Shown piece after piece: positions 17,101 to 22,883 of a stretch of DNA of 33,591 bases. Each line of letters begins with the position of its first letter. The stretch's first letter is position 1. The DNA is taken from the NCBI GenBank assembly GCA_030605125.1, contig JAUWBD010000032.1:1-33591 (forward strand). The letters run 5' to 3'. Source of the DNA: Verrucomicrobiota bacterium (GTDB taxonomy: Bacteria > Verrucomicrobiota > Verrucomicrobiia > Opitutales > Opitutaceae). Both the position numbers and the translations under genes were made by a program. The notes below the pieces were generated by a model. It saw only the letters and a program-made list of their open reading frames with translations. It did not search any database and was not told the DNA's origin.

Positions 17101-17439
17101 GACGCCGCCGCGCGCCGCCAGAAGTGGATCGACCAGTCCCAGAGCGTGAACCTCTGGCTCGCGACGCCCGACATGAAGAGCATGTCGCACATGTATCGCC
17201 ACGCCTGGCGTTCGGGCCTCAAGACCACCTACTACCTCCGCAGCCTCGGCGCCTCCTCAATCGAGAAGGCCAGTGTGCAGGTGAAGAAAGAGGTCCGCGG
17301 CGTCGCCGGCGACGCCGGCCGAGCCGCCGCCGCGGCCGCGACGACCGCGCCGGAAAAGAAGACCTACACCGCGGAGCAAAAGCTCGCCTGCAGCATTGAA
17401 GCGATGCGCAACGGCGGCGAATGCGAGGCCTGCCAGTAA
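14125..17439 (+). CDS. nrdA: Class I ribonucleotide reductase, large subunit NrdA (with extended ATP-cone region)
   Basis: A 1104-residue R1 protein that reduces ribonucleoside diphosphates. The long N-terminal half holds two or three ATP-cone-like regions (about residues 30-150, 155-245 and 275-370), the allosteric switches. Active-site residues are clear: Cys504 (SSCYLYY), Asn716-Cys718-Glu720 (NLCTEI), Cys733 (VCNLG), the Tyr pair in TTYYLRSLG and a C-terminal redox Cys pair (CEAC). Residues 249-258 (SGGTPSPASA) and the Ser/Ala-rich linker after them come from a dispersed intergenic repeat inserted in frame. The ATG at 14125 directly follows the repeat-rich leader. It pairs with nrdB as the Chlamydia-like class Ic enzyme. 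A strong terminator follows. Confidence 0.94.
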   Translation: MNPVLQQDLALKKATHTPRDQKPAYAWRDCIPADTALLPEITLLAPHGETRFDLGEIADSLGQALVNVHLARGESGNVFSPESKTFVGRIVKEVAAALATEAQRSSPVRISLNDLYHLLERVLVEAKAYDVAKSLLLNRGRKIAHGAGTATAVRVIRRNKQVVPYIPQKVEVAVRKAFLSLQQDSRPAVAITEAVTTRVLSSKQAFVHIEEVQDMVQEELMKSGHFKVAEAYILYRAARNEARLGDPSSGGTPSPASASASDDSSASLASQPSMFMIKKPDGSNELWTRADLRARIAFASIGLELCLTADEIETELTRSIYDQISQKDLDQTIVLNSKTLIEKDADFARFAGRIQLTYIYEEVLGWDIVRDGIAKLKQFHVAAFKKAIEHGIAIKRYSPRLREYDLDALAAQLDPTADLEFDFLGVQTLYDRYLIIDKTVKPSRRLETPQFFWMRVAMGLFLDEKKDRENKAVSLYGLYKSRRFCSSTPTLFNSGTLHSQLSSCYLYYVDDSLEGIMYRGIAENAQLSKWAGGLGGSWTAVRGTGAYIGGTNGESQGVIPFLKLHNDQLVAVNQGGKRKGSGCAYLESWHNDIFEFLELRKNTGDDRRRTHDMNTANWIPDLFMKRMENRQHWTLFRANEVKDLHELYGKKFEEAYLRYEQLAEQGKIFGQKIEAIELWKKMLSMLFETGHPWITFKDACNLRSPQDHCGVIHSSNLCTEITLNTSNDETAVCNLGSVILETHLRPDGSLDLEKLRETIRIAVRALDNVIDINFYPTVAAKTSNLRHRPIGLGVMGLAHALYLKGIPFASQPAVEFNDEAMEAIAYYAYEASADLAAERGTYSTYQGSKWSRGLLPQDTIDLLAEERGVPVDVPRGGKMDWAPVRAKIELHGMRNSNVLAIAPTATISNITATSPCIEPLYKNIYVKSNLSGEFTVLNPFLVKDLKQRGLWDQQMIDDLKYFDGELKDIDRVPEDLKQRYLTAFGIDPKWVVDAAARRQKWIDQSQSVNLWLATPDMKSMSHMYRHAWRSGLKTTYYLRSLGASSIEKASVQVKKEVRGVAGDAGRAAAAAATTAPEKKTYTAEQKLACSIEAMRNGGECEACQ
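14869..14897. repeat. 29-base dispersed repeat inserted in frame in nrdA
   Basis: These bases are identical to 1755-1783 in the rpmE2/PP2C gap. Read in the nrdA frame they give SGGTPSPAS and the start of the next codon. The insertion falls in a linker between ATP-cone regions, so the enzyme core is untouched. Confidence 0.85.
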
Positions 17440-17450
17440 AACTTAGAAAC

Positions 17451-17478
17451 AAAGCCCCGGCAAAACGCCGGGGCTTTT
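17451..17478 (+). terminator. Intrinsic terminator after nrdA
   Basis: A perfect 11-bp stem AAAGCCCCGGC / GCCGGGGCTTT with a 5-base loop, ending in T residues. It begins 12 bases after the nrdA stop codon and marks the left edge of the low-GC island. Confidence 0.92.
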
Positions 17479-17492
17479 GCTGAAAAGCTAGC

Positions 17493-18356
17493 TTGCGAAG
17501 CAGTTCTCTGCATCAGGCCTTTGTGGGATCAATACTAGTGAACACTGGAGATATTCAATATTATAGCAAAACGCCAGCGCCAGAGCATGCTACTGGTGAC
17601 ATCTGGAGGGGGTTGCCGTCTACTGGTTTGTGTAAGCGGCCGACTTGCACTGGGGTTGTCATTTCGCCTGCTTGCGATCTTGCCAACTGTAAATCGGAGG
17701 TTGTCACTTACTTGCCTGTCGTTAGCATTGCCGAATACTACTCAAGTGCTGCCAGTTATATGGAATACAGGCCTGCTTTGAATAGTTGTTTGAAAGAAGC
17801 GGGCATGGATAGGTTCTCAGACTACGTCGGCTTGGAGCGGGTCCCTACGCCACAGGACATAGATGTGTTGTTCGCCCAAGTCGAAGCCGGCAACATTAAG
17901 AACAAAATACATGAGACGCGGGTCGTAAAAGGTCTTCAATGCTTGAAGCGGGCGCTGGAGTTGGACGTTAAGCAGAATGACTGGAACGATTTAAAGGTAT
18001 TTTTTGGAAGTAGGAAATTTGAAGAAACGCTTGCAGGAGTAATTACTAATTCCCAACGGCCTGATTTGCATTTCCTTCCTGCAGACAAGGAAGATCCCGA
18101 GTGGAGCGCTATACCGTTTCACTCGGTCGCTTTGTTGCGTTATCCGATAACTATCCCAATAGAGATTCTTAACGACGCGTCTCGAGCGTCCTCGCAGGCT
18201 GCATTAGAAAAAAACCTTCCCGTTAAAATCTTACGTCTACGTGAGGCGTTCACGGGAGATTTGACAAGCAGATTCGCCGCCCTTTTCGCTAGAGTAGGCT
18301 CCCCGGATTTTACGCCGAGTAATATCGAAACCATTAAAAGAGAAGTTTTCGCATGA
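17493..18356 (+). CDS. Hypothetical protein, first gene of a helicase operon (accessory island)
   Basis: A 287-residue protein that I do not recognise. The N-terminus reads SLHQAFVGSILVNTGDIQYYS, and the most striking block is GVVISPACDLANCKSEVVTYLPVV (quoted in parts: ISPACDLANCK, VVTYLPVV), with two Cys and an Asp that could be a metal or catalytic site. No membrane segment or signal peptide is seen. The only upstream start is TTG at 17493 (GTG at 17523 and 17538 are alternatives), just 15 bases after the nrdA terminator, so its own promoter is missing or the start has been disturbed. It overlaps the helicase start by ATGA, which implies translational coupling. G+C is visibly lower than in nrdA, a sign of transfer. 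Confidence 0.7.
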   Translation: MRSSSLHQAFVGSILVNTGDIQYYSKTPAPEHATGDIWRGLPSTGLCKRPTCTGVVISPACDLANCKSEVVTYLPVVSIAEYYSSAASYMEYRPALNSCLKEAGMDRFSDYVGLERVPTPQDIDVLFAQVEAGNIKNKIHETRVVKGLQCLKRALELDVKQNDWNDLKVFFGSRKFEETLAGVITNSQRPDLHFLPADKEDPEWSAIPFHSVALLRYPITIPIEILNDASRASSQAALEKNLPVKILRLREAFTGDLTSRFAALFARVGSPDFTPSNIETIKREVFA

Positions 18357-20695
18357 TGTTCGCATACCTTGCAGTGCCTCAGAAAACTTGTGGGTGGCTG
18401 CTTTCGTCTGCGCCAAGGCGACAAGCCATATCTCGGAATTTAGGGCCTTTAGTCGGACAATCGAGCCTATCGACAGGAGTATTGGCGGTCGGCCCAATAA
18501 GGCTCGCAGGCATTGCGAAGCATTCACTGTTAGTCCTTTGGCATCAGGATTACATTACTGGCGAGGGGTTTGAACATTGGGGTATAGCGAAGCTTAGTGG
18601 GGAGGATGGGCTACTTAACGAACCCGAGATTTGTGATGAGGTTTTCGAGCGCTTTCTAGCTGTAGCCGATGCTCGCTTGCAGGGACTGCTGCTAGACGAC
18701 CGATTTATTCACCGTAGCTTCGGAGATGATCTCCATACATGTCTGGCTGGGCGTGGTGATTCAGCCCGTCGGTATAGTTTAGCCTACTGCGATCGTTCAT
18801 TGCGAATCGGCACCGTTCGCGCACCGGCACTAACTTCTATCGGCCCAACTGAGGCTATTTACGAGGTGGCAGTGCGCCGGCTTGCTGATCAAAGGGCACG
18901 ATTGGAGTCGGCAATCGTCGCGGCAAATGAATTTCTTTATTCGGCTCATCGGCGGCCTAACATCGATTCGGCTAGCTATGCTGAACTGCGCCAAGCTTTT
19001 CATCAGGCGGGCAAAGTATCTGAGCCGATTCATGGGCCAGTTGCTGTTGTCCCTTCTTTAGGTGAGCTTGATGATAACGCGGGTGGACTGGATTACAGCG
19101 GGTGGATCGCTGCGAATAGTCCTCTTAGCGCTGCACAGCGAGCCATCCTTGAGCAAGATGTTATCTTGCGTCAGCCTCTTCGGATTTTGGGGCCTGCTGG
19201 TTCCGGCAAGACGCTTCTCATGCAACTTTTGGCCATTCGCCGATTGGTGGATGCGGAAGAGAAGAAGGCTTCATGCGTAATCCTATTCATAGTTCATAAT
19301 CAAGCGATGGCCGAGATGGTGTTTTCTCGATTCATTGACCTTGGTGTTTCTCGTTTCCTCGAGGGGGTCGACAGAAAGCTAAGTGTGATGACGCTGAGCG
19401 GTTATTGCCGAGAGGTGCTTGCCGACGACGAGGTTCCAGTAATCGACGTCGATGCTGCTGAGACCAAGAGGTTTCAACTGGCAATGGTGCTAGAGAACCT
19501 TAGGAAATTGTTCAAAGAGTATGATGGGAAATTAGATGATCGTGAGCACTATCCGCTAATACGACAGATTTATCAGAAAGCAGACCTCCAAGGAGTTTTT
19601 GCGGAGATTTTAGTGGCTGAGTTTGGTATCGCTATCAAATCGAGGGGCCTAAACTACGACAAAGAAAAGTATGTATACTCCGAAGCCCCTCTTAGTAGGC
19701 TCCATTCGATTTTAACTACCGCTGAGCGAGATTTCGTATTTGATGTTTTTGTTAGTTATTCGCGTTTTATAACTGATGAATCTGGGTTGCTCGACCCTGA
19801 TGATTTGGCGATCACCATGCTGTCTCGGTTGCGGACGCCGCTATGGCAAATAAAGCGGAAGAAAATTGGCTTCGATTTCGTGTTCATCGATGAAACGCAG
19901 CTCTTCAATGAGAATGAGAGGAGACTATTTACGCTCCTAACCAAGGGAACTGCAAATCATGTTCCTGTCGTTTTAGCCTTGGACGAAGCTCAATCTCTTA
20001 GTCAGTTGTCAATAGCGGGCTTCGGAACGATGGGAATTCAATCCCTCGCTGATGAATCTCTTAGCACCGTTTTTCGTAGCACGGTTTCCATACTAAAGTT
20101 GGCCTTTTTTGTTATCCAGCGTTCGACTGATCTATTTGGTCCCGAATTTCCTGATTTCACGCGAAGTGCAGCTTCAATAATTTCTGACGACCATCGCCTG
20201 GCGCAGCCCCCTATTATCAGGTGTGGCGGACAACTAAGGGGGCCTCTTGGTAAAACAGTGATCAAGGTCGCAGGCGAGCTTAGGTCTGCGAATCTACGGC
20301 AGGTGGCTGTGATTGTTCATACTGAGCGCTATTGGGATAACATCATTGCGGAATTACGAGCGTCTAGGTTGCCTCTGCTCGTCCTATCCACCCGGGGGGA
20401 AAAAATTGACCCCACTCAAGCGCTCATTGTGGTTAGCAAACCAGAGTTCGTTGGTGGCCAAGAGTTCGATGCTGTTATCGCTGTTGGACTCGAAGAAGGA
20501 CTTGTTCCCCCGCAAGTAAGTGGACAAGACTCACTCCAAGCAGGGCTGGAGCAGCGTGCGCTCCGTGAAATGTATGTAGCGTTCACCCGCGCTCGTTATC
20601 GACTGGTTGTGCTTAACTCGACGGGCTCACATCTTACGCCGGTTCTACGAGACGCAGTGAAAGCTCAATTGATATTGCATGCTAAAGCTCCCTAG
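18353..20695 (+). CDS. UvrD-like SF1 helicase with novel N-terminal region
   Basis: A 780-residue protein. Residues 1 to about 255 form a region I do not recognise. From about 262 on it is an SF1A (UvrD/Rep-like) helicase: GPAGSGKT (Walker A, 280-287), FVFIDETQ (motif II, Asp513, DETQ instead of DEAQ), VVLALDEAQ (motif III), VFRSTVSIL (motif IV), VGGQEFDAVIAVGLEEG (motif V) and MYVAFTRARYRLVV (motif VI). The core is complete and probably active. It starts inside the stop of the preceding gene (ATGA overlap), so the pair should be expressed together. Helicase plus small unknown partner on a low-GC island resembles anti-phage modules such as Gabija or helicase-DUF2290, but the partner does not match a nuclease I know. 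Confidence 0.85.
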   Translation: MMFAYLAVPQKTCGWLLSSAPRRQAISRNLGPLVGQSSLSTGVLAVGPIRLAGIAKHSLLVLWHQDYITGEGFEHWGIAKLSGEDGLLNEPEICDEVFERFLAVADARLQGLLLDDRFIHRSFGDDLHTCLAGRGDSARRYSLAYCDRSLRIGTVRAPALTSIGPTEAIYEVAVRRLADQRARLESAIVAANEFLYSAHRRPNIDSASYAELRQAFHQAGKVSEPIHGPVAVVPSLGELDDNAGGLDYSGWIAANSPLSAAQRAILEQDVILRQPLRILGPAGSGKTLLMQLLAIRRLVDAEEKKASCVILFIVHNQAMAEMVFSRFIDLGVSRFLEGVDRKLSVMTLSGYCREVLADDEVPVIDVDAAETKRFQLAMVLENLRKLFKEYDGKLDDREHYPLIRQIYQKADLQGVFAEILVAEFGIAIKSRGLNYDKEKYVYSEAPLSRLHSILTTAERDFVFDVFVSYSRFITDESGLLDPDDLAITMLSRLRTPLWQIKRKKIGFDFVFIDETQLFNENERRLFTLLTKGTANHVPVVLALDEAQSLSQLSIAGFGTMGIQSLADESLSTVFRSTVSILKLAFFVIQRSTDLFGPEFPDFTRSAASIISDDHRLAQPPIIRCGGQLRGPLGKTVIKVAGELRSANLRQVAVIVHTERYWDNIIAELRASRLPLLVLSTRGEKIDPTQALIVVSKPEFVGGQEFDAVIAVGLEEGLVPPQVSGQDSLQAGLEQRALREMYVAFTRARYRLVVLNSTGSHLTPVLRDAVKAQLILHAKAP

Positions 20696-20831
20696 GGGCT
20701 GCCACAGCGGTTCGAACGGGCGAGACGGGGGACACGGTTCGATCTGGGGAGATAGTTTAGTCCAGGTCTATAGGGTGCACATTCAGGACAAATGCTGTAA
20801 TCCTAACGAATTGCACTAAGAGTTCTTCATC

Positions 20832-21755
20832 TTATGCTAGATACCGCTTTTCCATTTCTTCGATCATCCGCATGAGTTCGATATTTGGGATCTGAGGGCG
20901 GGGAGGCCGAGATCTTATTCGCTCCCATGCTTGGATGTATTCAGTAAAAATCTTCTTTCCGATCAGTTCCTGCGCTCCCCAAGGCGATAATACGTGGCAC
21001 CTGAGCTCATTTTCATCCGCCCCGACCATTCGACTCGCGAGATACTTAACTACTCTGTCCCGCGTTATCAAAAGAACAGGAGTTTTGTTTTTATGCCCTT
21101 TAAAGGCACATCGCCGCCAGTGCTGAATTAGTGAGAAGTCCCAAGCTACATTCCTTATGTCTTGGAGTGTCCTCTTTTTTAACATTCTCCCTGGGTGGCT
21201 CGGGGAGAAGAGAAGGTTTGCAAATAGGAACGCTGACGATCCAAAGCGGAACTTGGTCTCCATCCATTTGATGAGCGAAATGACGGCCACTTCTGGATCG
21301 AAATTTTCCTTCGTAATCAATGCGATCTTTAGTGCGAGAATGTAATTAGCGAGATAATCTGTTCCTTTATCCTCAAATAACTCGGCCTTAGGGACGTCTT
21401 TCACCGGTTCTAAATCTTTGATCGACGATGTATCTAGTCGGGCCGATCGGCCTACCGCAAAGTCGACCCATGCATTGGGATCGCAATTGTCCGCTCGGTA
21501 GAACTGAAGGAAATCATCTAATGCCTCTTTGCCTCCCTTGTGACTGGCGTATTCACGAAGGGATGAACCGTATTGGAATCGGATTTTAGCAATTTGGCAA
21601 AAAGCCATTACGGCTGCTGCCCAACGATAGTCGGCCTGTTGGGGAATCGGTGGGCAATAATCGCGCGCTAGAGCAGTTATACGGGTGTAGACGTTTCTAT
21701 CTAATATAGCAGTGAAATCCCTAAGTCTACGGGAGAAGTGGTATTGCGGCCGAGC
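20832..21755 (-). pseudogene. PIN-like protein gene, 5' end removed by the RAYT/REP element
   Basis: About 307 residues remain open. The frame continues upstream to a TTG at 21815, but those codons read the REP sequence (ATKRGLTP), so the true start is lost; no ATG occurs in the first 68 codons of the extended frame. The remaining protein begins PQYHFSRRLRDFTAILDRNVYTRI (in parts: FTAILDRNV, VYTRI). The spaced acidic motifs ILDRNV, RNVAWDFSLI and LLITRDRVV resemble PIN-type nuclease folds. It is convergent with the helicase operon, 136 bases away, and has the same low G+C, so it probably belonged to the same island. Without a start it is likely inactive, though expression from the TTG cannot be excluded. 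Confidence 0.6.
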
Positions 21756-21757
21756 CG

Positions 21758-21783
21758 AAGGGGTCAGGCCGCGTTTTGTTGCA
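21758..21783. repeat. Left REP of the RAYT element
   Basis: AAGGGGTCAGGCCGCG followed by TTTTGTTGCA is the reverse complement of the repeat at 22764-22787 over 24 bases. It truncates the PIN-like gene. Confidence 0.88.
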
Positions 21784-21844
21784 GAATCGGCCGGTTTTTG
21801 GACATAACACCCCAACTGCTTCTCCTGGACCCACTTTCCCCACC

Positions 21845-22783
21845 ATGGCCCGCAAACTCCGCATCCAGTTTTCCGGCGCGATCTACCACGTCATCAACCG
21901 CGGCAACTACCGTCGCGACCTCTTCCTCAGCCCCGGCGAGGCCAAGGCATTCCTCGACACGGTGAAGGAGGCGAAGGAACGCATGGGTTGGCGCGTCCAT
22001 GCCTACGCTTTGATGCGCAACCACTACCACTTGGCCATCGAGACGCCCGAACCCAACCTCGTGCAGGGCATGCATTGGCTGCAGACGACTTGGGCCAGTC
22101 GCTTCAACCGCTACCGCCAGGAAAGCGGGCACCTTTTTCAAGGACGCTACCGGGCTATCCTGCTCGAGGACTCCGCCGTGCTCGGCAAGGTCGTGGACTA
22201 CATCCACCTGAACCCGGTGCGGGCCAAGATCGTGCCTCCGGAGCAGGTGAAAAGTTATCGTTGGAGCAGCTTGAGCGGGATCGTGCGCGGAGAGGCTTGG
22301 GTGGACGATGCCGGTTGGCGCGCAGGTGGGCGTTTCGGCAAGAGCGCCGAGGACCGCAAAGCCTACGAGGCCTACCTAATCGAGGTCGGCCAAGATGAGG
22401 CGCGCTGGGAAAAACTTGGCCTCAAAGCCTTGTCCAAAGGGTGGGCGATCGGGACCTCGGGCTGGCGGCGCAGCTTGGCGAAAGAGCACGCGCAGTTGGC
22501 GCTCAATCCGGGGCTTGAGAGCGCGGAGGTGCGCGAGATGCGTGAGCTCGTCTGGGAGCAGGCGGTGCGCGAGGGCCTGCATGCGCTGGGGAAGGAAGAG
22601 GAGGCGCTTCTCAGCAAGCCCTTCGTGCTCCCGTGGAAGCTAATGCTCGCCGACCGTGTGCAGCGCGAGGCGGGGGCCTCGGTCGCCTGGCTCGCCCGCC
22701 GCCTCCAGCTCGGGCACGAGTCGTCTCTGCGCAGTCGCTTGTGCAAGCTCCGCAAGCCGGATTTGCAACAAAACGCGGCCTGA
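21845..22783 (+). CDS. REP-associated tyrosine transposase (RAYT, TnpA_REP)
   Basis: A 312-residue Y1 transposase of the RAYT group, single-strand HUH enzymes that act on REP sequences. It starts MARKLRIQFSGAIYHVINRG; the HUH motif is RNHYHLAIE (His60, His62), and the catalytic Tyr is probably Tyr119 in VDYIHLNPVRAKI. The C-terminal extension (about 130-312) looks like the DNA-binding tail of longer RAYTs. The stop codon lies inside the right-hand REP, so the last residues (QQNAA) are repeat-encoded. High-GC codon use matches the chromosome rather than the low-GC genes to the left. Inverted REPs on both sides fit an active or recently active element. Confidence 0.92.
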   Translation: MARKLRIQFSGAIYHVINRGNYRRDLFLSPGEAKAFLDTVKEAKERMGWRVHAYALMRNHYHLAIETPEPNLVQGMHWLQTTWASRFNRYRQESGHLFQGRYRAILLEDSAVLGKVVDYIHLNPVRAKIVPPEQVKSYRWSSLSGIVRGEAWVDDAGWRAGGRFGKSAEDRKAYEAYLIEVGQDEARWEKLGLKALSKGWAIGTSGWRRSLAKEHAQLALNPGLESAEVREMRELVWEQAVREGLHALGKEEEALLSKPFVLPWKLMLADRVQREAGASVAWLARRLQLGHESSLRSRLCKLRKPDLQQNAA

Positions 22784-22875
22784 CCCCCTTACGCCCCCCT
22801 TACGCCCTCGCAACAAAACGCGGCCTGACCCCCTTACGCCCTCTGACCCCCTTACGCCCTCCCCCTTACGCCCTC
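22764..22875. repeat. Right REP cluster of the RAYT element (two full, two partial copies)
   Basis: TGCAACAAAACGCGGCC followed by TGACCCC at 22764-22787 is the inverted match of the left REP. A second copy follows at 22810-22841, then shorter CTGACCCCCTTACGCCCT and CCCCCTTACGCCCT pieces. CCCCTTACGCCC is the shared tail. The decay from full to partial copies suggests repeated slippage or transposition. Confidence 0.88.
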
Positions 22876-22883
22876 GTGGGGGG

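Follow-up and report, generated by a model that had tools for sequence, protein, structure and literature searches.

A predicted MazF-fold protein and a UvrD-type helicase form a mobile two-gene module, a probable anti-phage system

Introduction

Helicase-containing systems are the described relatives closest to the locus reported here. Gabija (GajA-GajB) has two genes, one of them for a UvrD-like superfamily 1 (SF1) helicase, GajB, which is described as sensing DNA termini and promoting the activity of GajA (PMC10952713). Helicase + DUF2290 (Rousset et al. 2022), a UvrD-family helicase plus a small partner, is described as found on a phage satellite (PMC9122126). In a 33,591-nucleotide stretch of DNA from a Verrucomicrobiota bacterium (contig JAUWBD010000032.1, hereafter the window), an earlier note made from the letters alone had proposed that two adjacent genes, called A and B here, are a new or little-known defence system of the helicase-and-partner kind. 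Both open reading frames (ORFs) and their ATGA overlap were found as that note had given them, apart from the start of A. The features are as follows.

17538..18356, forward strand: gene A, 272 aa from GTG 17538, a predicted MazF-fold protein
18353..18356, forward strand: ATGA overlap of the A stop and the B start, translational coupling likely
18353..20695, forward strand: gene B, a UvrD-like SF1 helicase of 780 aa, helicase core at about residues 247-780

The pair resembles Gabija in its two genes and its helicase, which carries the same two Pfam domains as GajB. A GajB model (1.6e-12, 44.9 bits) ranked first among the PADLOC matches of B, ahead of one for an RT-associated helicase (3.9e-09), and the best-scoring stretch of the GajB match was the C-terminal motif region, 701-753. 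In contrast, A has a MazF-like predicted fold with no match to GajA or any other PADLOC model, and B carries about 245 extra residues at its N-terminus. Membership in Gabija was rejected, as the GajA partner (an ATPase plus TOPRIM nuclease) is missing and four A proteins matched no PADLOC or Pfam family, GajA included. Helicase + DUF2290 is similar in joining a UvrD-family helicase to a small partner. It was rejected as well, since six A proteins had no match to PF10053 (DUF2290) and three DUF2290 loci had no match to the A profile; the B profile gave only 13.7 bits, in one of those three. By its partner gene the pair is neither of these two systems, and the proposal of a new or little-known defence system is supported.

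The likeness of A to the toxins of MazEF, PemIK and Kid-Kis lies in its predicted fold (Z 12.6). A differs from them in a helical insertion of about 100 residues, in having no PF02452 match, in an invariant Cys-Asp unseen in 15 aligned PemK proteins, and in its partner, which is a large ATPase whereas theirs is a small antitoxin. Instead of the small antitoxin of type II toxin-antitoxin systems, the conserved partner of A is a helicase, about 710-790 aa long in complete copies. PrrC, a tRNA nuclease, is described as kept silent by a linked type I restriction-modification (R-M) enzyme until a phage anti-restriction factor activates it (PMC2610378). PrrC, with other nucleases tied to type I restriction loci, is the precedent for two copies of the pair (loci L012 and L024), which lie directly behind hsdS as an additional module of the restriction locus; however, no family label links A or B to PrrC, and of 25 surveyed loci these two alone were placed behind hsdS. 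Neither A nor the pair is named in Pfam, NCBIfam, PADLOC 2.0.0 (2023) or PHROGs 4, and literature searches, with preprints and most subscription papers outside their scope, gave no description of the pair. We regard the pair as a probable helicase-plus-partner defence module with a possibly new effector family; an earlier description of it may exist.

Results and discussion

Conservation of the pair

A profile of B, searched against 84,980 genomes, gave at least 23 loci. It also matched 6 viral contigs, 91 plasmid records, none of which spans 80% of B, and 2 phage records of one phage. A first genome scan with B alone and a tblastn search with A alone in plasmids and phages gave nothing. The hosts include Alpha-, Beta- and Gammaproteobacteria, Mycolicibacterium, Microbacterium, Treponema and Lachnoclostridium, along with metagenome-assembled genomes of Fibrobacteres and Deltaproteobacteria, and the pair is conserved across several phyla. 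We examined 35 loci (window included, and partly redundant: L007/L034 and L005/L006), 30 of which have at least 600 bases upstream of the B frame. A was present directly upstream of B in 29 of these 30, in 25 by the strict rule and in four (L008, L027, L030, L033) where the stop-to-stop frame of B runs into A; the one locus without A, L015, has a mere fragment of a helicase at the end of its contig. The upstream A frames were found among the ORFs of the loci by a profile of four A proteins, at E 1.1e-4 or better. The junction in most relatives is an overlap or a gap of a few bases. B of the window is 41-43% identical to its nearest relatives (L008-L012, L031), four of which are 29-35% identical in A. 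The A frame is interrupted in 3 of the 29 loci (L005, L006, L011) and in some plasmid copies. Of these three, L006 also has its helicase frame split in two; in L005 and L011 that frame is open.

In the reverse test, 337, 321 and 246 genomes from three classes were searched with the A profile. Apart from the three seed genomes, two strong matches came up, each followed directly by B (2e-76, 8e-121), and three weak ones that lacked B. One of the weak matches (L067), whose frame is antisense to a long hydantoinase-like ORF, was set aside as chance. Pairwise identities of A and of B co-vary over 26 loci, one near-identical pair included (Pearson 0.95, Spearman 0.76; 0 of 5000 Mantel permutations as high). 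A single-protein query found no A in the 176 further genomes sampled from the order, and a four-row profile none in the 386 further genomes sampled from the phylum, where A occurred solely in the window's own genome (1/387). The earlier note had named two observations that would speak against its proposal, homologues that rarely occur together and housekeeping genes at one locus in most relatives. The reverse was found for both, with A upstream of B at nearly every locus with room, with B downstream of both new strong A matches, and with no A found in the other genomes sampled from the order and the phylum. A-B is a mobile two-gene module present in very different bacteria, phages and plasmids.

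The helicase

B scored over the cut-off for PF00580 (3.1e-09) and PF13361 (9.8e-08). In a 30-sequence alignment G280, G283, G285, K286, T287, D513 and E514 were invariant, as were D544, Q547, R575, G702, Y741, R746 and A747, which we take to belong to the SF1 motifs (Walker A and B, and III-VI). The presence of the SF1 motifs, stated in the earlier note, was confirmed. The same note had given about 255 N-terminal residues as of no known family; there was indeed no Pfam match in this part, and its extent is about 245 residues. PHROGs 4 placed phrog_1967 'DNA helicase' first (3.3e-21), ahead of weaker helicase families, and a sequence search of the PDB returned weak UvrD/PcrA motif rows; WDR5 rows in the same search were taken as chance. 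In the AlphaFold2 model of B (predicted local distance difference test, pLDDT, 79.4; predicted template modelling score, pTM, 0.62), residues of about 247-780 matched UvrD/PcrA/Rep with a VIA-align Z of up to 19.8 and a root-mean-square deviation of about 17 Å, a large value that we put down to domain placement in the model. The last third of B matched the C-terminal domain of HelD (Z 19.7, 2.5 Å, 159/159). Judged by its sequence, B is a UvrD-type SF1 helicase with its motif residues intact.

The partner protein

The open frame of A runs from TTG 17493 (287 aa), the first start codon and the position at which the earlier note had begun the gene. Alignment with the nearest relatives (e.g. L012 'MGTPATPDDYYDHTPEPGHATGDIW') favours GTG 17538 instead. 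No promoter was seen in front of A by consensus scan. Cys46, Asp47 and Gly254 were identical in 24 of 24 aligned A proteins and Arg201 in 23 of 24, and the ISPACDLANCK block, suspected earlier to be conserved, is so in its Cys-Asp. Lys52 depends on the alignment, being invariant in one (22 rows) and present in 17 of 24 in the other. A of the window matched no Pfam, NCBIfam or PADLOC family, and the other members scanned matched none of these over the cut-off; PF02452 had no match among six A proteins. Sequence searches with A returned nothing from the PDB and nothing significant from PHROGs 4. Rows below the cut-off for single A proteins (HTH_18 0.028, DUF2452 0.13, TIGR02787 0.054) were taken as chance.

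Structure prediction of both proteins had been recommended in the earlier note. The AlphaFold2 model of A, built from 22 sequences (pLDDT 86.5, pTM 0.81), found its best VIA-align match at Z 12.6, with 104 residues aligned of a 108-residue chain at 2.4 Å. VIA-align was run on the 827 top chains of Foldseek, and all 50 rows listed were titled MazF, Kid, MoxT, YdcE or, less specifically, toxin or endoribonuclease, vague titles being accepted as listed. The first 34 Foldseek rows were of the same kind, and among the viral models of BFVD a PemK/MazF toxin ranked first (E 0.073). A helical insertion at residues of about 64-175 (about 100-110 residues) lies between barrel strands of the model, and the Cys-Asp follows the second strand, on a linker and a short helix. 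The active site of MazF is placed on linkers between barrel strands in a review of MazF (PMC7180214). Among the 15 PemK proteins the Arg after the β1-β2 loop was invariant and a following TS common. This Arg and a Thr/Ser in the next strand have catalytic roles in MazF.

Defence and mobile contexts

The phage copy (L007) lies between a portal gene and a 'nicking at origin of replication' (gpA-type) gene. In P2-like phages the gpQ-gpA interval is described as a hotspot of anti-phage systems (PMC9122126), and L007 sits in this hotspot. In Escherichia coli, 113 of 5426 genomes matched, every match lying on a plasmid and none on a chromosome; in 109 of them at least 80% of the query was covered. 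Most plasmids with the pair are predicted to be conjugative. Two complete E. coli copies were inspected, and both had transposase genes or remnants on their flanks.

The neighbour survey covered 25 of 29 scan loci and up to six nearest ORFs each (138 of 195 called, by crude ORF calling). PADLOC matched three type I methyltransferases and two specificity subunits (among 25 shown of 247 matching families), and Pfam matched four phage integrases, one BrxL and many metabolic families (among 25 shown of 119). The located neighbours are given below; the third type I methyltransferase has no assigned locus.

L012: hsdM-hsdS-A-B
L024 (Treponema): hsdM-KilA-N-hsdS-A-B, then DUF5677 and Macro genes
L026: pglZ-brxL-A-B (BREX)
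L020: type IV-like restriction gene downstream of the pair

The earlier note had suggested a survey for enrichment near known defence genes; some copies lie at type I R-M genes, at BREX genes, in the P2 gpQ-gpA hotspot and on plasmids. The pair was found at defence genes or on mobile elements in a survey that had no background control of neighbours. The genes at L024:2694-11088 are codirectional with short gaps, an extended restriction-type operon. A plasmid copy from Paraburkholderia adjoins genes annotated as ImuA, DNA polymerase Y family and error-prone DNA polymerase.

A-like domains with other partners

A-like domains occur outside the helicase pair. In two unrelated genomes (L066/L070 and L087) an A-like C-terminal domain stands behind a receiver-like part, beside a HATPase gene, and a short A-like protein was found in a third setting.

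L070:6761-10075: HATPase gene and receiver-like protein with an A-like output domain, beside C5 DNA methylase and Vsr endonuclease genes
L087:3-1908: HATPase gene and receiver-like protein with an A-like output domain
L068:95-652, reverse strand: 186-aa A-like protein (LTQSCDLAHAK) with no helical insertion, adjoining a TIGR04255 protein at a contig end

In a small search the A profile matched L068 at 1e-14 and L066/L070 and L087 at 2e-8 each; against whole genomes it matched L068 at 5e-5 and L066 at 1e-5. The Cys-Asp position reads Cys-Asn in L066/L070 and Cys-Asp in L087. The pairing with TIGR04255 was seen once, at L068, and not elsewhere. The HATPase gene and the receiver-like protein may form an unlisted two-component conflict system. 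It presumably resembles Detocs-like two-component defence in joining a kinase-type ATPase to a receiver-like protein with an A-like output domain, a likeness limited to the wider A-like family and not extending to the helicase pair. The domain at the output end of a response regulator is usually the effector, and the position of the A-like domain there is the main reason for which we cast A as the effector.

Proposed function

The pairing of A and B, their conservation and co-divergence, the helicase motifs, the predicted MazF fold, the Cys-Asp and the defence and mobile contexts have direct support, and the pair probably gives bacteria a resistance to viruses of a kind not yet described. That it serves defence in some form is very likely, and A is rather likely to be the effector; that A cuts RNA falls just short of an even prospect. 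The reading we favour, and hold to be slightly better than evenly balanced, is that A-B is a mobile two-gene anti-phage module in which B is the sensor motor and A the effector, roles assigned by analogy with GajB of Gabija. B would load on DNA ends or on single-stranded DNA arising when phage DNA replicates or is cut, and would hydrolyse ATP. Its state could be relayed through its N-terminal domain, the helical insertion of A, or both, so that A is released or activated. A would then act as a MazF-fold effector with an active site of its own (Cys46-Asp47 plus Arg201), most simply as a nuclease cutting RNA, and growth of the infected cell would stop, an abortive outcome.

Several observations weigh against this reading. 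The pair is rare in whole-genome samples. The best Foldseek E for A was 0.056, insignificant alone, and no chain reached E 0.001. Alignment of A with the 15 PemK proteins by hhalign gave a probability of 0.4%; when the columns of the insertion were taken out, it was 5.5% in a global and 0.3% in a local alignment. The MazF link of A is thus one of predicted-model fold, which sequence profiles do not confirm, and A was rejected as an ordinary PemK/MazF toxin by sequence, given the hhalign value and the missing PF02452 match. In a low-confidence alignment the A column that matches the Arg of PemK is variable and the one that matches the following Thr is hydrophobic; therefore A may not cut RNA in the way of MazF, or may be no enzyme at all. 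If it is an enzyme, its chemistry probably differs from that of MazF. The neighbour survey had no background control, and its families come only from those listed. Among the A-like proteins, the receiver of L066 is below the Pfam cut-off (Response_reg E 0.032), and the receiver and HATPase of L087 were judged by eye. Phage protection, and the part of A as effector and not sensor, are what we infer from the whole.

The same defence system with the roles exchanged is a less likely but serious alternative. Here A would be a sensor or adaptor whose barrel binds phage or host nucleic acid or protein, and B an effector that unwinds or clears phage DNA or blocks replication. It would agree with the lack in A of the usual Arg and Thr of MazF (by the same low-confidence alignment), with helicase motif residues kept in 30 of 30 aligned B sequences, and with the large extra N-terminal part of B. 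However, receiver-like proteins of two genomes carry the A-like domain at their C-terminus, where the output lies; the Cys-Asp, invariant on a MazF-type fold, has the look of an active site; and GajB, which shares both Pfam domains with B, is described as sensing DNA termini (PMC10952713). The predicted MazF fold of A, together with carriage on plasmids, mostly predicted to be conjugative, and on a P2-like phage, would also suit a toxin-antitoxin or plasmid/prophage stabilisation module, with A a toxin held by B and the benefit being maintenance of the element and not defence. We consider this unlikely, as a 780-aa ATPase is unlike a small labile antitoxin and the pair also lies at type I R-M and BREX genes. 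Least likely, and improbable in our view, is a module of DNA repair or recombination with no defence role; the UvrD-like helicase and the Paraburkholderia plasmid copy beside ImuA and polymerase genes fit it, but the distribution is sporadic (1/387 genomes of the phylum), the carriage mobile and several neighbours are defence genes. To our knowledge, no MazF-fold partner has a role in repair.

The sensor-effector reading can be extended, tentatively. A could be the founding member of an undescribed enzyme family with a MazF-type barrel and a new Cys-Asp(-Arg) active site, serving as a shared effector in at least three conflict architectures: the helicase pair, where it has the helical insertion, a kinase/response-regulator pair, where it is the output domain, and a short stand-alone form beside TIGR04255. 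The helicase pair could then sense DNA and act abortively by attacking RNA or nucleotides, and those copies set in type I R-M and BREX loci could serve as a second line where restriction has failed. Should the pair protect against phage, it would count as another immune module driven by a helicase, its partner being of a type unnamed in PADLOC 2.0.0. A MazF-fold effector family whose active site differs would then be gained, and entries now called 'hypothetical protein' and 'UvrD-helicase domain-containing protein' could be labelled. The presence of the pair on E. coli plasmids makes it easy to test, and the invariant Cys-Asp offers a direct and cheap mutational target.

The low-GC island

A and B lie in a low-GC island that extends from window position 17479 to about 21750 and begins directly behind the terminator hairpin of nrdA. 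G+C was 0.465-0.524 in 1-kb windows over 17501-22000, as against 0.62-0.74 (about 0.67 overall) outside the island and two edge windows, in agreement with the lower G+C noticed earlier. The island holds A, B, an unrelated gene C on the opposite strand, and then a Y1 (IS200-like) transposase gene.

17454..17478, forward strand: intrinsic terminator of nrdA and left edge of the island, GCCCCGGC-AAAAC-GCCGGGGC-TTTT, hairpin 17454-17474 plus TTTT
20832-21815, reverse strand: gene C, up to 327 aa, low G+C

The terminator, whose T run is 4 T only, was absent from the list of the pattern scan. We searched the C-terminus of nrdA in 15 same-genus genomes, of which 10 matched, the window's own included, and 5 had no nrdA match. 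DNA similarity of the nine other nrdA loci to the window stops at 17478 in six and at 17439-17441 in three, with one stray 41-base match elsewhere in one of the nine. A, B, gene C and the transposase had no tblastn match in the nrdA flank of any of the nine relatives, as compared over about 1.5 kb for seven relatives and over shorter flanks for L074 (about 700 bases) and L078 (about 360 bases). Insertion behind the nrdA terminator, as first proposed, is consistent with these breakpoints; the inserted island is larger than the two genes then recognised and has C as a third low-GC gene.

Gene C matched no Pfam, NCBIfam or PADLOC family over the cut-off. Its relatives were found on 11 of 72,556 plasmids, all 11 predicted to be conjugative, and the two plasmid copies inspected were both near integrase genes. 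As a third component of the module it was rejected, because neither gene C nor the transposase was found by tblastn in the A-B loci compared. The Y1 transposase gene lies within 21760-22880, flanked by a 32-nt inverted repeat (91%), in an element that we take to be of the RAYT type. A 23-mer at this element has three occurrences in the genome (up to 1 mismatch), all of them within 21760-22880, and five 16-nt repeats of the CCCCCTTACGCCC type follow behind the transposase gene.

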